Below, piece by piece: positions 13,661 to 54,459 of a stretch of DNA of 64,000 bases. This stretch comes from Cellvibrio mixtus subsp. mixtus J3-8. GTDB taxonomy: Bacteria; Pseudomonadota; Gammaproteobacteria; Pseudomonadales; Cellvibrionaceae. Every line of letters starts with the position of its first letter. Positions within the stretch are counted from its first letter, which is position 1. Location of the stretch: the NCBI RefSeq assembly GCF_000766945.1, contig NZ_ALBT01000058.1, positions 1-64,000 on the forward strand. The letters run 5' to 3'. Below the pieces are notes generated by a model. That model saw nothing but the letters and a program-made list of their open reading frames with translations, did not search any database and was not told where the DNA came from. The position numbers and the translations under genes are program-made.

Positions 13661-13670
13661 AAAGCAACGA

Positions 13671-13716
13671 AACCCTGAATGACTATTAATTTTTCAATAG
13701 TCATTCAGGGTTTTAT
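13671..13716 (+). terminator. Strong hairpin between rpoA and rplQ
   Basis: A perfect 17-bp stem (13671-13687 with 13696-13712), an 8-nt loop and TTTT at the end form an intrinsic-terminator-like structure 10 bp after rpoA. It lies inside what is normally one operon; no convincing promoter is seen in the 83 bp before rplQ. Confidence 0.75.
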
Positions 13717-13795: not shown

Positions 13796-14188
13796 ATGCG
13801 TCATCGTCTTACTGGTCGCCAATTAGGCCGTAATGCTTCTCACCGTAAAGCTATGTTTCGTAACATGGTAATTTCTCTGGTTGAGCATGAATTAATTAAA
13901 ACTACTTTGCCAAAAGCAAAAGAGCTGCGTCGTTTTGCAGAGCCTTTGATTACTTTGGCAAAAGTGGATAGCGTTGCGAATCGTCGTTTGGCGTTTGCTC
14001 GTTTGAACAGCAAAGAAGCTGTAGGTAAATTGTTCAGCCAGCTTGGTCCGCGTTATAACACTCGTCCAGGTGGTTATGTTCGAATTTTGAAATGCGGTTT
14101 CCGTGCTGGCGATAAAGCACCAATGGCTTATGTTGAATTGGTTGATCGTCCGGCAAAAGCTCTTGAGGCTGCTGTAGACGCTGAATAA
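13796..14188 (+). CDS. rplQ: 50S ribosomal protein L17
   Basis: 130 residues from ATG 13796 ([19 protein letters not shown]). The frame is open from a TTG at 13790, but GAAGGA at 13782-13787 is best spaced for 13796 and the family starts MRHR. Last gene of the alpha operon. The 135-bp gap from rpoA and the hairpin in it are noteworthy. Confidence 0.97.
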
Positions 14189-14206: not shown

Positions 14207-14240
14207 TAAAAAGGCCAGGCAGAAATGCCTGGCCTTTTTC
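14207..14240 (+). terminator. Intrinsic terminator after rplQ
   Basis: A stem of about 14 bp around GGCCAGGCA and TGCCTGGCC closed by a GAAA tetraloop (14222-14225) is followed by five Ts. It ends the ribosomal gene cluster. Confidence 0.9.
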
Positions 14241-14303: not shown

Positions 14304-14321
14304 TGTAGTCAATGTCTCACA
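14304..14321 (+). promoter_or_regulatory. Candidate GacA upstream activating site
   Basis: TGTAGT-N6-CTCACA matches 9 of 12 positions of the palindromic site TGTAAG-N6-CTTACA described for GacA in pseudomonads, with exact 6-bp spacing. Its centre is about 64 bp upstream of the predicted start of the GGA-rich RNA, in the range reported for Rsm RNA promoters. A -10 (TAGAAT, 14365-14370) is present but no good -35, as expected for an activator-dependent promoter. Confidence 0.6.
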
Positions 14322-14375
14322 CATAATTCGGATTTTGTCTGCTATCCGTTGATTATGAAATTGATAGAATGGTCA

Positions 14376-14540
14376 GCACAGGACGTTGATCGATACAGGA
14401 AGTATTGATGAATGGATAAGGACTTACGGATGTAGTCACAAATGGAAAATGGGATTTAGGCTGGATGCCGATGCGGTCAAGATGATCGTTGACCCGCCGC
14501 AGGATGCAACGGGGCTTGCGGATGCAATGCCCCTTTTTTA
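14376..14540 (+). ncRNA. Candidate RsmY/RsmZ-type CsrA-sequestering sRNA
   Basis: About 165 nt between a -10 element and an intrinsic terminator. It holds ten GGA trinucleotides (14381, 14398, 14413, 14420, 14428, 14444, 14452, 14463, 14502, 14520), roughly four times chance. Several sit in hairpin loops: 14391-14407 (stem CGATAC/GTATTG, loop AGGAA), 14421-14437 (loop GGAT), 14459-14469 (loop TGGAT), and the terminator loop. The first, ACAGGAC, resembles the CsrA/RsmA consensus. The RNA would titrate CsrA/RsmA and so release translation of its targets. No primary-sequence match is claimed; the call rests on motif density, loop placement, terminator and the upstream GacA-like site. Confidence 0.75.
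14511..14540 (+). terminator. Intrinsic terminator of the GGA-rich RNA
   Basis: GGGGC plus TTGC pairs with GCAA and GCCCC (one bulged T at 14528), closing a GGAT tetraloop at 14520-14523, then six Ts (14534-14539). The loop itself is a possible CsrA/RsmA site. The structure points to + strand termination, away from uvrA. Confidence 0.85.
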
Positions 14541-14582
14541 TTTTAATCGTGATTTAATTTGCCGGATGATTGGCGAGTTAAA

Positions 14583-17456
14583 TTACGATTTTGCTTTTGC
14601 AGTTTTTGTTGCAGGTTTCTTTTTGGTATTGGTAATTTTCAGCATTGGTTTAAGGAATCTTCCGGTGTGCGAGTGCTCAAGTTGAGCGATTTCCTCCGGT
14701 GTTCCGGTTGCAATAATCTGCCCTCCGCCGCTGCCTCCTTCCGGTCCCAGGTCTACAATCCAGTCCGCAGTTTTAATTACATCAAGATTGTGCTCAATGA
14801 CAACTACAGTGTTTCCATGATCGCGTAACCTGTGCAGTACATTTAGCAATTGCTGGATGTCGTAAAAGTGCAAACCGGTGGTGGGTTCATCGAGAATATA
14901 AAGTGTTTTACCAGTGTCGCGTTTGGATAATTCTTTCGCAAGTTTCACCCTCTGCGCTTCACCGCCAGATAGTGTTGTTGCTGATTGCCCCAGTCGAATA
15001 TAGGACAAGCCTACGTCCATCAATGTTTGCAATTTATTGGCGATGGATGTAACCGGATCAAAAAATTCGCGTGCGTCTTCCACTGTCATATCCAACACCT
15101 CATTGATGTTTTTATTTTTATATTTCACATCCAGTGTTTCGCGATTGTAACGTTTGCCTTTGCACACGTCGCACGGAACATAAACATCGGGCAAGAAGTG
15201 CATTTCTACTTTTGTGACGCCATCACCCTGGCAGGCTTCACAGCGTCCGCCTTTTACGTTGAAGCTGAAGCGGCCAGGTTGATAGCCGCGTGAGCGGGAT
15301 TCCTGCGTGGCTGCAAATAATTCCCGGATTGGTGTGAATATACCGGTGTACGTTGCCGGGTTTGAGCGCGGCGTGCGACCGATCGGGCTTTGGTCGATAT
15401 CCACACATTTATCAAATAAATCCAGTCCCTGAATTTCTTCATATTCAGCTGGATCAAGTGTGGTTGCGCCATTGAGCTCAGTGGCTGCCAATGGATGCAG
15501 GGTCGCATTGATAAGCGTGGATTTCCCCGAGCCAGACACACCGGTTACGCAGGTCATCAATCCAACAGGAATTTCCAGCGTAACGTTTTGCAAGTTATTG
15601 CCTTTGGCTCCGATCAATCGCAACATTTGTTTCGGGTCTACCGGGTTGCGTTTGGCTGGTACTGCGATTTCTTTGGTACCACTGAGGTATTGGCCTGTGA
15701 TCGAATTCTTGTTGGCCATAATTGCTTTTACATTTCCTTGTGCGATTACCTGGCCGCCGTGCACGCCAGCACCCGGACCAATATCGATTACATGGTCGGC
15801 AAGGCGGATAGCATCCTCATCGTGTTCGACCACAATCACCGTATTGCCGATATCGCGCAAATGGGTGAGTGTCTTCAGTAATCGTTCATTATCGCGTTGA
15901 TGCAAGCCGATAGAGGGCTCATCAAGGATATACATAACACCAACAAGGCCAGCACCAATTTGGCTGGCAAGACGAATTCGCTGCGCTTCACCACCAGATA
16001 AAGTTTCAGCACTACGATTCAATGTCAGGTAATTCAGGCCAACATCGACCAAAAAGCGAAAGCGATCCCGCAGTTCTTTAAGAATCTTATCGGCAATACC
16101 TGCCTTGCGACCAGTGAAACTGAGTTTCATGTAGTAAGCATACGCATCCGCTACGGGCATTTCAGTGATCTTGGGTAGCGGGCGTTCATCGATAAACACA
16201 TTGCGTGCTTCAATGCGCAAACGAGTGCCATCACATTCCGGGCAAGGTTGGGTCGATAGGAATTTAATCAGGTCTTCGCGCACTGAATTGGATTCTGTAT
16301 CGCGATAACGTCGCTCCATGTTCGGCAAAACGCCTTCGAATGTATGGCTGCGTTTGTACACATCACCGCGATCATTGATGTAATTAAATTCAATCGTTTC
16401 ATCGCCTGAACCATAAAGTACGGCCTCACGCTGTTTTGCTTTTAGTTTCGACCAGGCGGTATCGACATTGAAGCCATAATGCTTGGCAAGCGATGCCAGC
16501 ATGTGGAAGTAATAAACATTGCGTTTATCCCAGCCTCGGATAGCCCCGTCGGACAGGCTAAGCGTCGGGTCCTGGATAACTTTATCTTCATCAAAAAATT
16601 GATGTACGCCCAAACCATCGCAAGTAGGACAGGCGCCGGCAGGGTTGTTAAACGAGAAGAGACGTGGCTCCAATTCGCTCAGGCTATAATCGCAAATCGG
16701 GCAGGCGTGTTTGGAAGAAAAAAGGCGATCTGGTCCTTCGCCATCCATGTAATTAATGCATGCGATACCTTCGGATAAGTTCAGTGCTGTTTCAAATGAT
16801 TCTGCCAGGCGCAGTTTTAAATCCTCGCGCACTTTAAAGCGGTCGATAACCACTTCAACGGTGTGTTTCTTTTTCTTATCGAGCTTTGGTGTATCGTCCA
16901 GGTCGCAAAGGATGCCGTCGATACGTGCGCGGATAAAACCATCGCGCTTCAGTTGCTCAAATACATGCAAATGTTCGCCTTTGCGGTCGCGAATGATCGG
17001 CGCGAGCAACATCAGCTTGGTGCCTTCCGGCATCGCTAATACCGTATCTACCATCTCGCTAATAGTCTGCGCAGTGAGTGGTGCCCCATGCTCGGGGCAG
17101 CGTGGCTCGCCTACACGGGCGTAAAGCAAACGCAAGTAATCGTAAATTTCGGTGATGGTGCCGACTGTGGAGCGAGGGTTATGCGAGGTAGATTTCTGCT
17201 CAATCGAAATCGCGGGGCTCAAGCCTTCCACGTGATCGACATCCGGCTTTTCCATCATTGATAAAAACTGGCGCGCGTAGGTGGATAATGATTCCACATA
17301 GCGACGCTGGCCTTCAGCGTATAGGGTGTCGAACGCGAGTGAGGATTTGCCCGAACCGGAAGGGCCGGTAATTACCACAAGTTTGTCGCGCGGAATATCC
17401 AGGTCAATATTTTTGAGGTTGTGGGTGCGTGCACCCCTGACAATAATTTTGTCCAT
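14583..17456 (-). CDS. uvrA: Excinuclease ABC subunit A
   Basis: 957 residues (940 in E. coli). UvrA is the damage-recognition ATPase of nucleotide excision repair. Two ABC modules are visible: Walker [14 protein letters not shown] near the start and [10 protein letters not shown] in the second half, each with an LSGGEAQR signature. Zinc-binding cysteine pairs are CPICD/CPTCD and CEACQ/CDVCK. The C-terminal extension is Lys-rich ([14 protein letters not shown]). It starts [20 protein letters not shown]. The order rplQ, sRNA, uvrA(-), YajR-like(+), ssb(+) resembles Pseudomonas. Confidence 0.98.
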
Positions 17457-19884: not shown

Positions 19885-20895
19885 CTAATCCAATAATGTT
19901 GCGCGAATCGCTATTATTTTAGGCAGTGCTTCACTAAATGCTTTTACCAGGGCGGGGTCAAAATGTTTGCCGGCTTCCTGCTCGATATAACGCGTTGCCT
20001 CTTCAATCGTCCACGCCGTTTTATAGGGGCGAACACTGGTGAGTGCATCAAATACATCGGCGATGGCGACTATGCGTGCTTCGATGGGAATTGTTTCACC
20101 AACAAGGCCTTTGGGGTAACCGGAACCATCCCATTTTTCGTGATGGTTAAGCGCGATAATGCGCGCGATTTTTAAGAGATTGGAATTGTCGTCACCAATA
20201 ATAGTTGCGCCAATTTCCGTATGACTTTTCATGATTTCCCATTCGTCCGGTGTGAGCTTGCCGGGCTTTTGCAAAATGGCATCGGGGATTCCAATTTTTC
20301 CGATGTCGTGCATCGGCGCTGCATTTAATAATTCTTCCGCATCGACGGCGTTCATTCCGGCAGCGAGTGCTATTTCCTTTGAGTAATGGCTCATGCGAAT
20401 AACATGCAAGCCAGTTTCGTTATCTTTGTATTCGGCGGCGCGGCCAAGACGATGGATAACTTGCAAACGCGTCTCACGCAGTGTGTCGATGCTCACCAGC
20501 GAAAGTTGTGTTTTAACGCGGGCCAACACAATAGGTGGACTTACGGGTTTGGTAATGTAATCCACACAGCCCGCATGAAAACCTTCGGCTTCATCACGTG
20601 TTTCTGCGAGGGCGGTAACAAATATCACTGGAATATGCTGGGTAGTTGAATTGCTTTTAAGTTGCTTGCAGGTTTCCAACCCGGTAATGCCCGGCATCAT
20701 AATATCCAGCAAAATCAAATCCGGTTTTTCATTGATGGCGAGGCTTAATGCTTTTTCGCCATCGCGCGCAAAGAGTAAACGATAATCCTGCTGCAAGATT
20801 TGTTTCAATACTTGCAGGTTAACGGGTTCATCATCCACGAGCAGTAATTTCGGGCGGATATCTTGCTGCGCAAAAATAGAATTTGTTTCAGTCAT
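19885..20895 (-). CDS. Response regulator with HD-GYP phosphodiesterase domain
   Basis: 336 residues, RpfG-like. The receiver domain (about 14-130) has the acidic pair Asp21-Asp22, the phospho-acceptor Asp64 in LILLDIMMPG and the conserved Lys in DYITKP. The HD-GYP domain (about 145-330) has His196-Asp197 in APMHDIGK and HHEKWDGSGYP at 251-261, the full motif expected of a cyclic-di-GMP phosphodiesterase. It begins two bases after the stop of the hybrid kinase, so the two are almost surely co-transcribed and form a signalling pair that would lower cyclic-di-GMP. Confidence 0.9.
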   Translation of the reverse strand: MTETNSIFAQQDIRPKLLLVDDEPVNLQVLKQILQQDYRLLFARDGEKALSLAINEKPDLILLDIMMPGITGLETCKQLKSNSTTQHIPVIFVTALAETRDEAEGFHAGCVDYITKPVSPPIVLARVKTQLSLVSIDTLRETRLQVIHRLGRAAEYKDNETGLHVIRMSHYSKEIALAAGMNAVDAEELLNAAPMHDIGKIGIPDAILQKPGKLTPDEWEIMKSHTEIGATIIGDDNSNLLKIARIIALNHHEKWDGSGYPKGLVGETIPIEARIVAIADVFDALTSVRPYKTAWTIEEATRYIEQEAGKHFDPALVKAFSEALPKIIAIRATLLD

Positions 20896-51459: not shown

Positions 51460-54459
51460 ATGAAAAAATTCCCCGTAAAACCACTGGCCCTGATGGTTGC
51501 TGCCCTGGCGGTAGCGCCCTGGTCAAACAGTGTGTTGGCCCAGGCGTCAGACGACGACAAGAAAGAAGGCGTGGAAGAAGTTGTGGTCACCGGCTACGCC
51601 TTATCGATCCAGAACAGCATTGATATCAAGCGCAACGCAGACACCGTTGTACAGGCAATTTCTGCCGATGACCTGGGCGCATTGCCCGACGCCTCCATCG
51701 CCGATGCGCTCGGCCGCGTTCCCGGCATCACCATTACCCGCTCCGGCGGTCAGGCGGGAACCATCCAGGTGCGCGGCATGGGTGAAGGCTTTGTGTTCTC
51801 CACCCTGAATGGCCGCGAGCAGGTATCACCTAACGGTACCCGTGCGATGGAGTTCAGCCAGTTTCCATCCGAACTGATCCAATCGGTAGAAGTGTATATG
51901 TCGCCCAAGGCATCGCTGATTGAAGGTGGTGTGGCGGGCACCGTGGAATTGAAAACTGCCAACCCGCTGGAAATGGAAGATGACCAAAAAGTTGTACTCG
52001 GCGTGCGCGGCAGTTTTAACGATCAAGCCGATGATATTTACGGTGCAGATCCCTACGGCAAACGCTTCTCTGTTTCCTTCCAGAAAAAATTATTCGATGA
52101 CAAACTCGGCCTTGCGTTGGGATATGCACGGTTAGTACAACCGCGTTCTGCCACGCGTTTTGAACAATATAATTACGAAACCACGCCTTATTCGCTGGTT
52201 AAACCGGACGAGCGTTTATCGACGGCGATTGTCGATAGGGACTTCAATGCCGTGTCCACCGCAAATCGCCCTGCATCAGTATTTATGGCGGAGGGTTTCG
52301 AAGTATTCCAGACCGGCGGTGAAGAAACCCGCGATGGTTATGTGGCGGCGGTCCAATTTGAACCGACGGAAAACCTGTCCATCCAGTCCGATGTTTTTTA
52401 TTCCAAATTTGAATCCGATAGTTACTCGCGCGGCTTCCGTGTGCAGCCATTGCGCAATGCTGAAATTGCCAGCATGGTGTTGTGGAATAACACAGCCGTT
52501 GTCGGAGGCGAATTCAAAAGCAATGACAAAACACCTACTGCACTTAATTTGCAAATTAATAGCAACGATGTCACCCAGACCAATGAATTGTTATCGGGCG
52601 GTTTGAATTTGCAATGGCAACAGGATGCACTGACGGCATCGCTGGATTTATCGCACTCCGATGCGTCCGGTGAACAAGCGGATGGTGTTGTACGTGCGTA
52701 TTTGTATCGTCCCAAATCAGCGGCAACTCCAAATGCTGATCCGTTTGAGCGCGATCCGGATCAATCCGTTACATATTTACTGGACGGCATTAATGTACCC
52801 AGCGTGAGTATGAGTCGCGATTACACCAGTTACGATAGCAACGGTGTCAGCAATGTTCGCCTCGCCAATTACGAACGCTATCCGCGCATTAACGACGATG
52901 TGATTAGCGCAGCGCGATTCGATGTGAAATATGAATTGGAAGTGCCGCTGATCAGTTCTGTTGAAGCCGGTGTGCGCTACTCGGAGCGCAACCACAAAGA
53001 TCGTCGCCAGGTGTTTGTGTATGGCGATGGTGCTGCAACAACGATTTTTACGGATTGGTCGTTGCCGATCACTACCGAAAATTCTGATGTGGTGAATTGG
53101 AAAGGCGAGTTCTCGCATTTCCCTTCATTTATCGCCATTGATGGTGATGCGATTATGAAAGAGGCTTACGACAAAGGTTTAGTGTTGGGGCCAGTACCTG
53201 AGCCAACGGCTGCTAACCCTAAACCGGTTGCCAGCGCACGTTCAATTGAACCGGCTGCGCGTTGGGGCGAAGGCCGCGATTGGTCGATGAAACAGCGTTC
53301 AGACATCGATGAAAATATCACGTCGTTTTATTTGCAAGCGAATCTGGCGACCACATTATTTGATCGCGATTTAATAGGTAATATCGGTTTACGCCATGTA
53401 CGTACCGACCAATCAAGTGTCTCCATTGTGAATGTCAATGGTGATGAATCCAAAGGTGCGATCGAAATTTGCGACGAAGTAGGTGAATGCAAAGCTGATT
53501 TTGCGTATCAAACATTGGGTGCTAAATACGATCACAACTTACCGTCGCTCAACCTCAATTATGCGTTGTCGGAAGATAACAGTTTGCGTCTCGCATTAGC
53601 ACGGGTGTTATCGCGACCACCAATCAATCGTCTCGCGGCACCCGATTCGGAAGGTACGATTTCTATTGAAGGAACCACCCCTTATTTCAATTATGGTAGC
53701 AATACTTCGCCCTTCCTTACCCCGTTTATTGCTGACCAGGTTGATATTTCTTTCGAGCACTACATGCCGGATACCAACGGTGCATTTGTTGTGGCTGTTT
53801 ATCATCGTGAAATCAAATCGTTTATCCAGGATATTACGTACGAAAATTTCGATTTTCGTGCAGCAGGGTTTGATGTGCCGGATACATGGGAAGTCGTAAA
53901 CAACAATACTGGTGGAGTGATTGTTGAGGAAGATGTTCAAAACGGAGACTATTCAACATCGATTAACAACAGCGAAGGTGGATACATTCGCGGCCTGGAA
54001 ATTTCCTACACCCAAACCTTTAACTTCCTGCCTGATCCCTGGGCCGGCTTGGGGGTAAGTACCAGTTACTCACTGACTGACAGTAAAATCAGTGTTGTGA
54101 ATCCGGTGGAAAGCGTTCAGGGCAGCAACAATTTGCCGTTCCCTGGTCTGGTAGAAAAATCGGCGAACTTCACGTTGTTCTATAGCTACGGCGCGTTTGA
54201 AACACGGCTCTCAACGACCTATCAGGATTCGTTTGTGGGTGAAACGCGCAACGTGAATTTACAACCCATTGTTTATGCGCCTGAAACATTGTTGGATTAT
54301 CAGGCGTCCTACAAATTTGATAACGGTATTGATGTTATTTTCTCTGTTACCAACCTGACCAATGAACCAAATAGAAGTTATATGTTTGATGAAGAACTGA
54401 CACGGACATTGCAGTGGTTTGGTCGCACTTTCTACGTAGGTGCGAATTACACTTTCTAA
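51460..54459 (+). CDS. TonB-dependent receptor (starch locus, second)
   Basis: 999 residues. Signal peptide ends near NSVLA; TonB box EEVVVTG; plug with ADDLGALPDASIADALGRVP and IQVRGMGEGFVFSTLNGRE; barrel ending in Phe (FYVGANYTF). Same subfamily as the first receptor but divergent enough to suggest a different ligand size or branch pattern, e.g. the products of the pullulanase encoded 69 bp upstream. Probably in one operon with pulA. Confidence 0.9.
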   Translation: MKKFPVKPLALMVAALAVAPWSNSVLAQASDDDKKEGVEEVVVTGYALSIQNSIDIKRNADTVVQAISADDLGALPDASIADALGRVPGITITRSGGQAGTIQVRGMGEGFVFSTLNGREQVSPNGTRAMEFSQFPSELIQSVEVYMSPKASLIEGGVAGTVELKTANPLEMEDDQKVVLGVRGSFNDQADDIYGADPYGKRFSVSFQKKLFDDKLGLALGYARLVQPRSATRFEQYNYETTPYSLVKPDERLSTAIVDRDFNAVSTANRPASVFMAEGFEVFQTGGEETRDGYVAAVQFEPTENLSIQSDVFYSKFESDSYSRGFRVQPLRNAEIASMVLWNNTAVVGGEFKSNDKTPTALNLQINSNDVTQTNELLSGGLNLQWQQDALTASLDLSHSDASGEQADGVVRAYLYRPKSAATPNADPFERDPDQSVTYLLDGINVPSVSMSRDYTSYDSNGVSNVRLANYERYPRINDDVISAARFDVKYELEVPLISSVEAGVRYSERNHKDRRQVFVYGDGAATTIFTDWSLPITTENSDVVNWKGEFSHFPSFIAIDGDAIMKEAYDKGLVLGPVPEPTAANPKPVASARSIEPAARWGEGRDWSMKQRSDIDENITSFYLQANLATTLFDRDLIGNIGLRHVRTDQSSVSIVNVNGDESKGAIEICDEVGECKADFAYQTLGAKYDHNLPSLNLNYALSEDNSLRLALARVLSRPPINRLAAPDSEGTISIEGTTPYFNYGSNTSPFLTPFIADQVDISFEHYMPDTNGAFVVAVYHREIKSFIQDITYENFDFRAAGFDVPDTWEVVNNNTGGVIVEEDVQNGDYSTSINNSEGGYIRGLEISYTQTFNFLPDPWAGLGVSTSYSLTDSKISVVNPVESVQGSNNLPFPGLVEKSANFTLFYSYGAFETRLSTTYQDSFVGETRNVNLQPIVYAPETLLDYQASYKFDNGIDVIFSVTNLTNEPNRSYMFDEELTRTLQWFGRTFYVGANYTF

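Follow-up and report, generated by a model that had tools for sequence, protein, structure and literature searches.

A putative GacA-activated, CsrA-sequestering small RNA gene between rplQ and uvrA in Cellvibrio

Introduction

The gap between rplQ, which ends at position 14188, and uvrA, which lies on the reverse strand and ends at position 14583, contains a GGA-rich unit, and this raises the question of whether the unit is a gene for a regulatory RNA and, if so, of which kind. The region belongs to a stretch of 64,000 nucleotides, here termed the window, from the genome of Cellvibrio mixtus subsp. mixtus J3-8 (G000; 5.18 Mb in 50 contigs), and an earlier note on this DNA had proposed that it harbors an RsmY/RsmZ-like RNA with the architecture of CsrA/RsmA-titrating RNAs. 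RNAs of this general kind are well known, and those of Cellvibrio, a genus known for plant cell-wall degradation, appear to be undescribed in the open-licence literature, searches of which revealed no report of Csr/Rsm RNAs in the genus. A prediction survey published by Kulkarni et al. in 2006 may include a prediction for a relative. The nearest report is the genome paper of the relative Teredinibacter turnerae, which in its accessible portion describes GacS, GacA and two CsrA and notes that C. japonicus has an annotated csrA; no sRNA gene is named there, with zero occurrences of CsrB, RsmZ and 'small RNA' (PMC2699552). In the accessible portion of PMC11295528, matches were confined to the name of the order and to csrA of a prophage.

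Results

Layout and promoter region of the locus

Downstream of rplQ, a terminator-like hairpin with a T run (14210-14240, read from the sequence) is followed in order by a box resembling the GacA/UvrY-binding sequence, a -10-like hexamer, the GGA-rich segment and its terminator (Table 1). The box, TGTAGTCAATGTCTCACA, agrees at 9 of 12 fixed positions, counted by eye, with the canonical TGTAAGN6CTTACA given in the available portions of PMC3171408 and PMC4950607, and is best regarded as a diverged, putative GacA site. It spans positions -72 to -55 relative to the predicted RNA start, and the available portion of PMC4950607 places the GacA upstream sequence of the rsmY promoter at about -75. The -10-like TAGAAT has no good -35 at 17 nt and would therefore suit an activator-dependent promoter; the promoter scanner listed none at the RNA locus. 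At the opposite end, the terminator stem pairs 14511-14519 with 14524-14533, with one bulged T, around a GGAT loop (14520-14523) and ahead of six T (14534-14539). This structure was absent from the output of a simple terminator scanner and was identified by direct reading, in agreement with the clean intrinsic terminator with a GGAT loop described previously. Between rpoA and rplQ, the window also contains a near-perfect inverted repeat (13669-13714) of 19-20 pairs that is terminator-like on both strands.

Table 1. Features of the putative RNA gene, and RNA classes of the genus and of the window genome
Feature	Position	Strand	Remarks
GacA/UvrY-box-like sequence TGTAGTCAATGTCTCACA	14304..14321	+	18 bp; 54 nt upstream of RNA
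-10-like TAGAAT	14365..14370	+	direct reading; TAAAAT at same place upstream in many relatives
Putative small RNA gene, class A, ~165 nt, ten GGA	14376..14540	+	predicted 5' end; 148.9 bits with model R1, one of whose 13 building copies is the window copy
Hairpin 1, GGA loop	14386..14412	+	GGA in 25/25 loops; both-sided change in 7/11 pairs
Hairpin 2, GGA loop	14421..14437	+	GGA in 22/25 loops; both-sided change in 5/6 pairs
Hairpin 3, GGC-TGGAT-GCC	14459..14469	+	GGA in 13/25 loops; pairs nearly invariant
Hairpin 4, window loop without GGA	14473..14489	+	GGA in 15/25 loops; both-sided change in 4/7 pairs
Hairpin 5, GC-AGGAT-GC, only two pairs	14499..14507	+	GGA in 25/25 loops; one loop type is GGGA
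Intrinsic terminator (hairpin 6), loop GGAT, six T	14511..14539	+	direct reading; GGA in 21/25 loops
Class A			~170-200 nt in genus-wide measure; 8 to 11 GGA
Class B			217-238 nt; 9 to 13 GGA
Class C			mostly 328-382 nt, 16 to 24 GGA; a single 280-nt member with 15
Class A of window genome	14376-14540	+	165 nt, 10 GGA; smallest of three
Class B of window genome (L137)	G000:C6 from 54212	+	~217 nt, 11 GGA to terminator
Class C of window genome (L139)	G000:C17 37561 to ~37150, box included	-	~349 nt, 22 GGA to terminator

GGA content and exposure

A count over 14376-14540 confirms the ten GGA claimed for these 165 nt or so, which start at 14381, 14398, 14414, 14420, 14428, 14444, 14452, 14463, 14502 and 14520. 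The chance expectation of about 2.6 given in the earlier note is too low for this composition, since mononucleotide shuffles contain a mean of 4.2 GGA (ten being reached in 11 of 5000) and dinucleotide shuffles a mean of 5.7 (43 of 5000); therefore, the count by itself is only moderately unusual. Within the 64-kb window, the RNA gene is the sole forward-strand cluster with at least 8 GGA per 165 nt, and at the same mark the reverse strand presents three, with 8 GGA at 20213-20380 and at 52252-52471 and 11 at 14583-14867. The last of these falls on the coding strand of the uvrA 3' end and is probably ordinary glycine-rich coding sequence.

The folding energy of the RNA is unremarkable (z -1.52). 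Its GGA motifs have a mean unpaired probability of 0.75 versus 0.46 (sd 0.07) in controls that held GGA in place and shuffled the remaining letters, a value reached by none of 300 such controls. The minimum-energy fold of the window sequence alone displays three GGA loops, and the family structure comprises six GGA-bearing hairpin positions, five of which retain GGA in the window copy, so that the several small hairpin loops postulated beforehand are found in both. The stretch forming hairpin 2 in the family pairing is paired differently in the lone minimum-energy fold. Many GGA are located in hairpin loops or single strands, and three elements of the form CAGGA(U/A/C)G are present.

Conservation and covariation across Cellvibrio

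A DNA search returned matches in 12 of 37 genomes, the window genome included, but those in G003 (32 bases over the box) and G024 (about 38 bases) were only short pieces and were therefore excluded as RNA copies. The covariance model R1, built from 13 copies, found matches in 17 of 116 genomes, again including the window genome, and 15 of these belong to the 21 genomes of the genus. The six genus genomes lacking an R1 match are to be read as soft absences, because this search used stricter filters. Two genomes (G006 and G019) present six R1 matches each, some of them partial or weak. Outside the genus, R1 produced two weak matches, of which that in G030 is a real GGA-rich locus; the one in G032 (L041) contains 2 GGA in the stretch inspected and was set aside as probably due to chance. 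Over 80 RplQ loci of named records, R1 gave three matches, two of them in named Cellvibrio and the third, truncated by the end of its contig, in a record bearing the name Gammaproteobacteria bacterium. Among named records, Cellvibrio sp. UBA7671 and Cellvibrio sp. OA-2007 provide the closest RplQ matches, at 97%.

The stems of the family covary. Against shuffles that ignore kinship among the copies, both-sided change affects 12 of 38 pairs in the 13 building copies (33 cells versus 11.4 shuffled, 0/500) and 21 of 38 when 25 copies (24 distinct) are aligned to R1 (86 cells versus 29.6 shuffled, 0/500, with 10 to 16 both-sided cells in slid controls), the latter alignment (A3) leaning to the model, to which it was fitted, and including the 13 building copies among its 25 rows. 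In the 12 copies that played no part in model building, 11 of them distinct, pairing is observed in 362 of 413 cells, as compared with 325.9 in equivalent shuffles (0/500). The conservation of GGA loops in relatives, proposed in the earlier note as a check, is apparent at hairpins 1, 2, 5 and 6 (25, 22, 25 and 21 of 25 loops), and the 12 copies outside model building contain GGA in 12, 12, 4, 10, 12 and 10 loops of hairpins 1 to 6, respectively. The family is characterized by constant loops on covarying stems, hairpins 3 and 4 less so, and hairpin 3 has no covariation support because its pairs are almost invariant.

The upstream box across genomes

Among 26 class A copies examined, 23 carry the box (0-4 mismatches) 53-55 nt upstream, as counted with a pattern derived partly from copies on which it was then counted; of the other three, two begin at a contig end and one, the weak match L040 of G005, lacks the box. 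Allowing at most one mismatch, the pattern occurs at 56 sites distributed over all 21 genus genomes, against 7 for a reversed control pattern. At 41 of these 56 sites, the 220 nt downstream contain at least 7 GGA, a threshold of our own choosing, whereas no upstream (0/56) or antisense (0/56) stretch does so, two of the upstream control stretches being shorter than 220 nt. No GGA-rich stretch lies downstream of the remaining 15. Once two mismatches are allowed, many genomes of the family contain hardly more matches to the pattern than to its control. Canonical GacA boxes (TGTAAGN6CTTACA, at most one mismatch) were found at seven places, none of which is followed, on either strand, by 220 nt with at least 7 GGA, and were discarded as a guide to a better locus (14 strand-wise matches versus 18 for the reversed control).

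Sibling RNAs and known families

The 41 GGA-rich box sites are spread over 20 of the 21 genus genomes, with none in G015, and sequence clustering divides them into three singles and eight clusters with 2 to 13 members; seven of the 41 have no terminator by a simple rule. We assigned them to classes A, B and C on the basis of size (RNAs of about 165, 220 and 350 nt), and two singles (L168 and L184) fall in no size class. The window genome has one RNA of each class (Table 1), and its class B and C siblings have GGA richness and the box in common with the class A RNA and belong to separate sequence clusters. A scan of 32 box loci, which lie mainly beyond the genus and include many chance box matches, revealed four with at least 7 GGA downstream (L187, L205, L226 and L227), in which the stretch resembles class B by eye. 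In G030, which belongs to a different family of the same order, a sponge-like locus of giant size (L048, 1376-1898) presents 29 GGA in about 451 nt and 18 predicted GGA hairpin loops and is preceded by the box TATGGTCAATGTCTCACA; Rfam at gathering score reports three tRNAs only, and no sponge family, at this locus.

Searches with Rfam at gathering score identified no family in the window, and the same holds for 20 sibling loci. The CsrB model (RF00018) gives 13.9 bits in the window and 20.2 bits in class C, well below its gathering score of 71, and neither RsmY nor RsmZ is among the 20 permissive, sub-gathering Rfam matches in the window. These permissive matches, the majority of which fall on the rplQ terminator region, were rejected as chance. 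The RNA has the sponge-type anatomy and the box expected of the RsmY/RsmZ-like RNA first proposed, but it does not match the Rfam CsrB, RsmY or RsmZ families at their cut-offs, and it would therefore work like these RNAs while standing outside their sequence families.

The Pseudomonas RsmX, RsmY and RsmZ RNAs resemble the Cellvibrio RNA in being GGA-hairpin RNAs with an 18-bp GacA upstream sequence and several siblings per genome; the Cellvibrio RNA, on the other hand, lies between rplQ and uvrA, has a box agreeing at 9 of 12 positions and has no Rfam match at gathering score. With E. coli CsrB and CsrC it shares repeated CAGGA(U/A/C)G-type loop elements, and the 22 GGA in 349 nt of class C equal the GGA count given for CsrB (both as stated in the available portion of PMC7652899). 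The window RNA differs from CsrB in its length, which is less than half of the 356 model positions, and has three CAGGA(U/A/C)G elements. The CsrB1 and CsrB2 RNAs of Shewanella oneidensis were predicted by a similar route, combining AGGA motifs with a UvrY box, and were later shown to be BarA/UvrY-dependent (PMC3171408, available portion). They are nonetheless about 420 nt long, encoded by adjacent genes separated by a transposase gene, and experimentally verified, whereas the Cellvibrio RNA is known from sequence.

Protein partners

The window genome encodes CsrA (C6:33305-33460) above model cut-offs, together with a candidate GacS/GacA pair whose members both score below theirs. The response regulator adjoining uvrC has UvrY/SirA/GacA as its best model (274.5 bits versus a cut-off of 280, 5.5 short), and the best BarA/GacS-like kinase reaches 742.8 bits versus the BarA cut-off of 890, the next kinase scoring 477.

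Discussion

The conserved and covarying stems, the GGA loops, the box at a fixed distance, the siblings and the partner genes all support the CsrA/RsmA-titrating architecture suggested in the earlier note, and we consider it very probable that positions 14376-14540 are a gene for a GacA-activated noncoding RNA of about 165 nt that sequesters CsrA. Transcription would start near 14376 and stop at the terminator (14539); it would be switched on by the binding of phosphorylated GacA to the box (14304-14321), and the GGA loops would then bind and sequester CsrA dimers, the titration of which would free CsrA-repressed mRNAs. By analogy with other gammaproteobacteria, a global role in the regulation of secretion and carbon metabolism may be postulated. 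The locus is conserved in the genus, and it is not the sole one of its type, as two larger siblings are located elsewhere in the genome.

Several other explanations deserve consideration. Chance or base composition might account for the GGA richness, the region being then no more than an ordinary terminator region flanked by convergent genes, as could be argued from the 43 dinucleotide shuffles that reach ten GGA and from the modest folding z-score, but the covariation and retained loops over 25 conserved copies, the presence of copies at other loci and the constant distance of the box make such an accident highly improbable. No more credible is an RNA that lacks its own promoter and derives from the 3'-UTR of the rplQ operon or from the uvrA 3' end: the RNA does lie directly between both genes, yet a terminator-like hairpin follows rplQ, the box and the -10-like element precede the RNA, and RplQ and UvrA are both seen at just 9 of 30 R1 loci, some of which are cut by contig ends.

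A short protein gene is the least plausible option of all and can practically be dismissed, in spite of an open frame of 99 aa with a TTG start (14386-14685), given that this frame extends past the terminator into uvrA and that the alignment combines single-base gaps with conserved GGA loops. It is also very unlikely, if less so, that the RNA is a trans-acting, base-pairing sRNA of the Hfq type, the GGA-rich segments of which pair with other RNAs. Its own promoter-like region and terminator, and some GGA lying between hairpins, would fit such an sRNA, and GGA may be seen as resembling a Shine-Dalgarno sequence; its conserved parts, however, are small hairpins with variable stems and mostly constant AGGA loops, as the available portion of PMC7652899 describes for CsrA sites, and siblings B and C have the same GGA richness and box yet cluster apart by sequence. 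A CsrA-sequestering RNA is hence the reading that we retain.

More tentatively, and with some doubt prevailing, the results might be read as evidence of a system of CsrA sponges in Cellvibrio with three tiers that are graded in capacity, in which class A copy number would tune the GacA threshold. Its tiers would be a class B form that reaches other Cellvibrionaceae genera, a class C with mostly 16-24 GGA, and a scattered, duplicating class A with up to six matches per genome. If this were true, changes in class A copies would tune the freeing of CsrA targets, such as polysaccharide-degrading enzymes. The work provides the Gac/Csr circuit of Cellvibrio with candidate regulatory RNAs, making CsrA/GacA control of polysaccharide use in this genus directly testable, and the combined search for box and GGA offers a route to fast-evolving CsrA sponges missed by Rfam models.

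Box-like sequences also occur before protein genes. The box-like TGTAGGAAATATCTCACA (L141; G000:C7:75539-75556, reverse strand) precedes a gene that we take to be xseB-like, and in three further genomes of Cellvibrio (L221, L223 and L224) the same 18-mer precedes a relative of this gene, so that a protein gene at this place may be under the control of GacA or of some other factor. A site that fits the box pattern in full (L136; G000:C1:971320-971337, reverse strand) is found, without a GGA-rich RNA, before a presumably ComEA-like gene, and boxes followed by sequence similar to this locus are present in G010 (L157) and G013 (L174). Finally, the box-like TGTAAGCAATATCTCACA (L140; G000:C2:295618-295635, forward strand), one mismatch away from the canonical GacA box, lies before a gene that we assume to be DegV-like.
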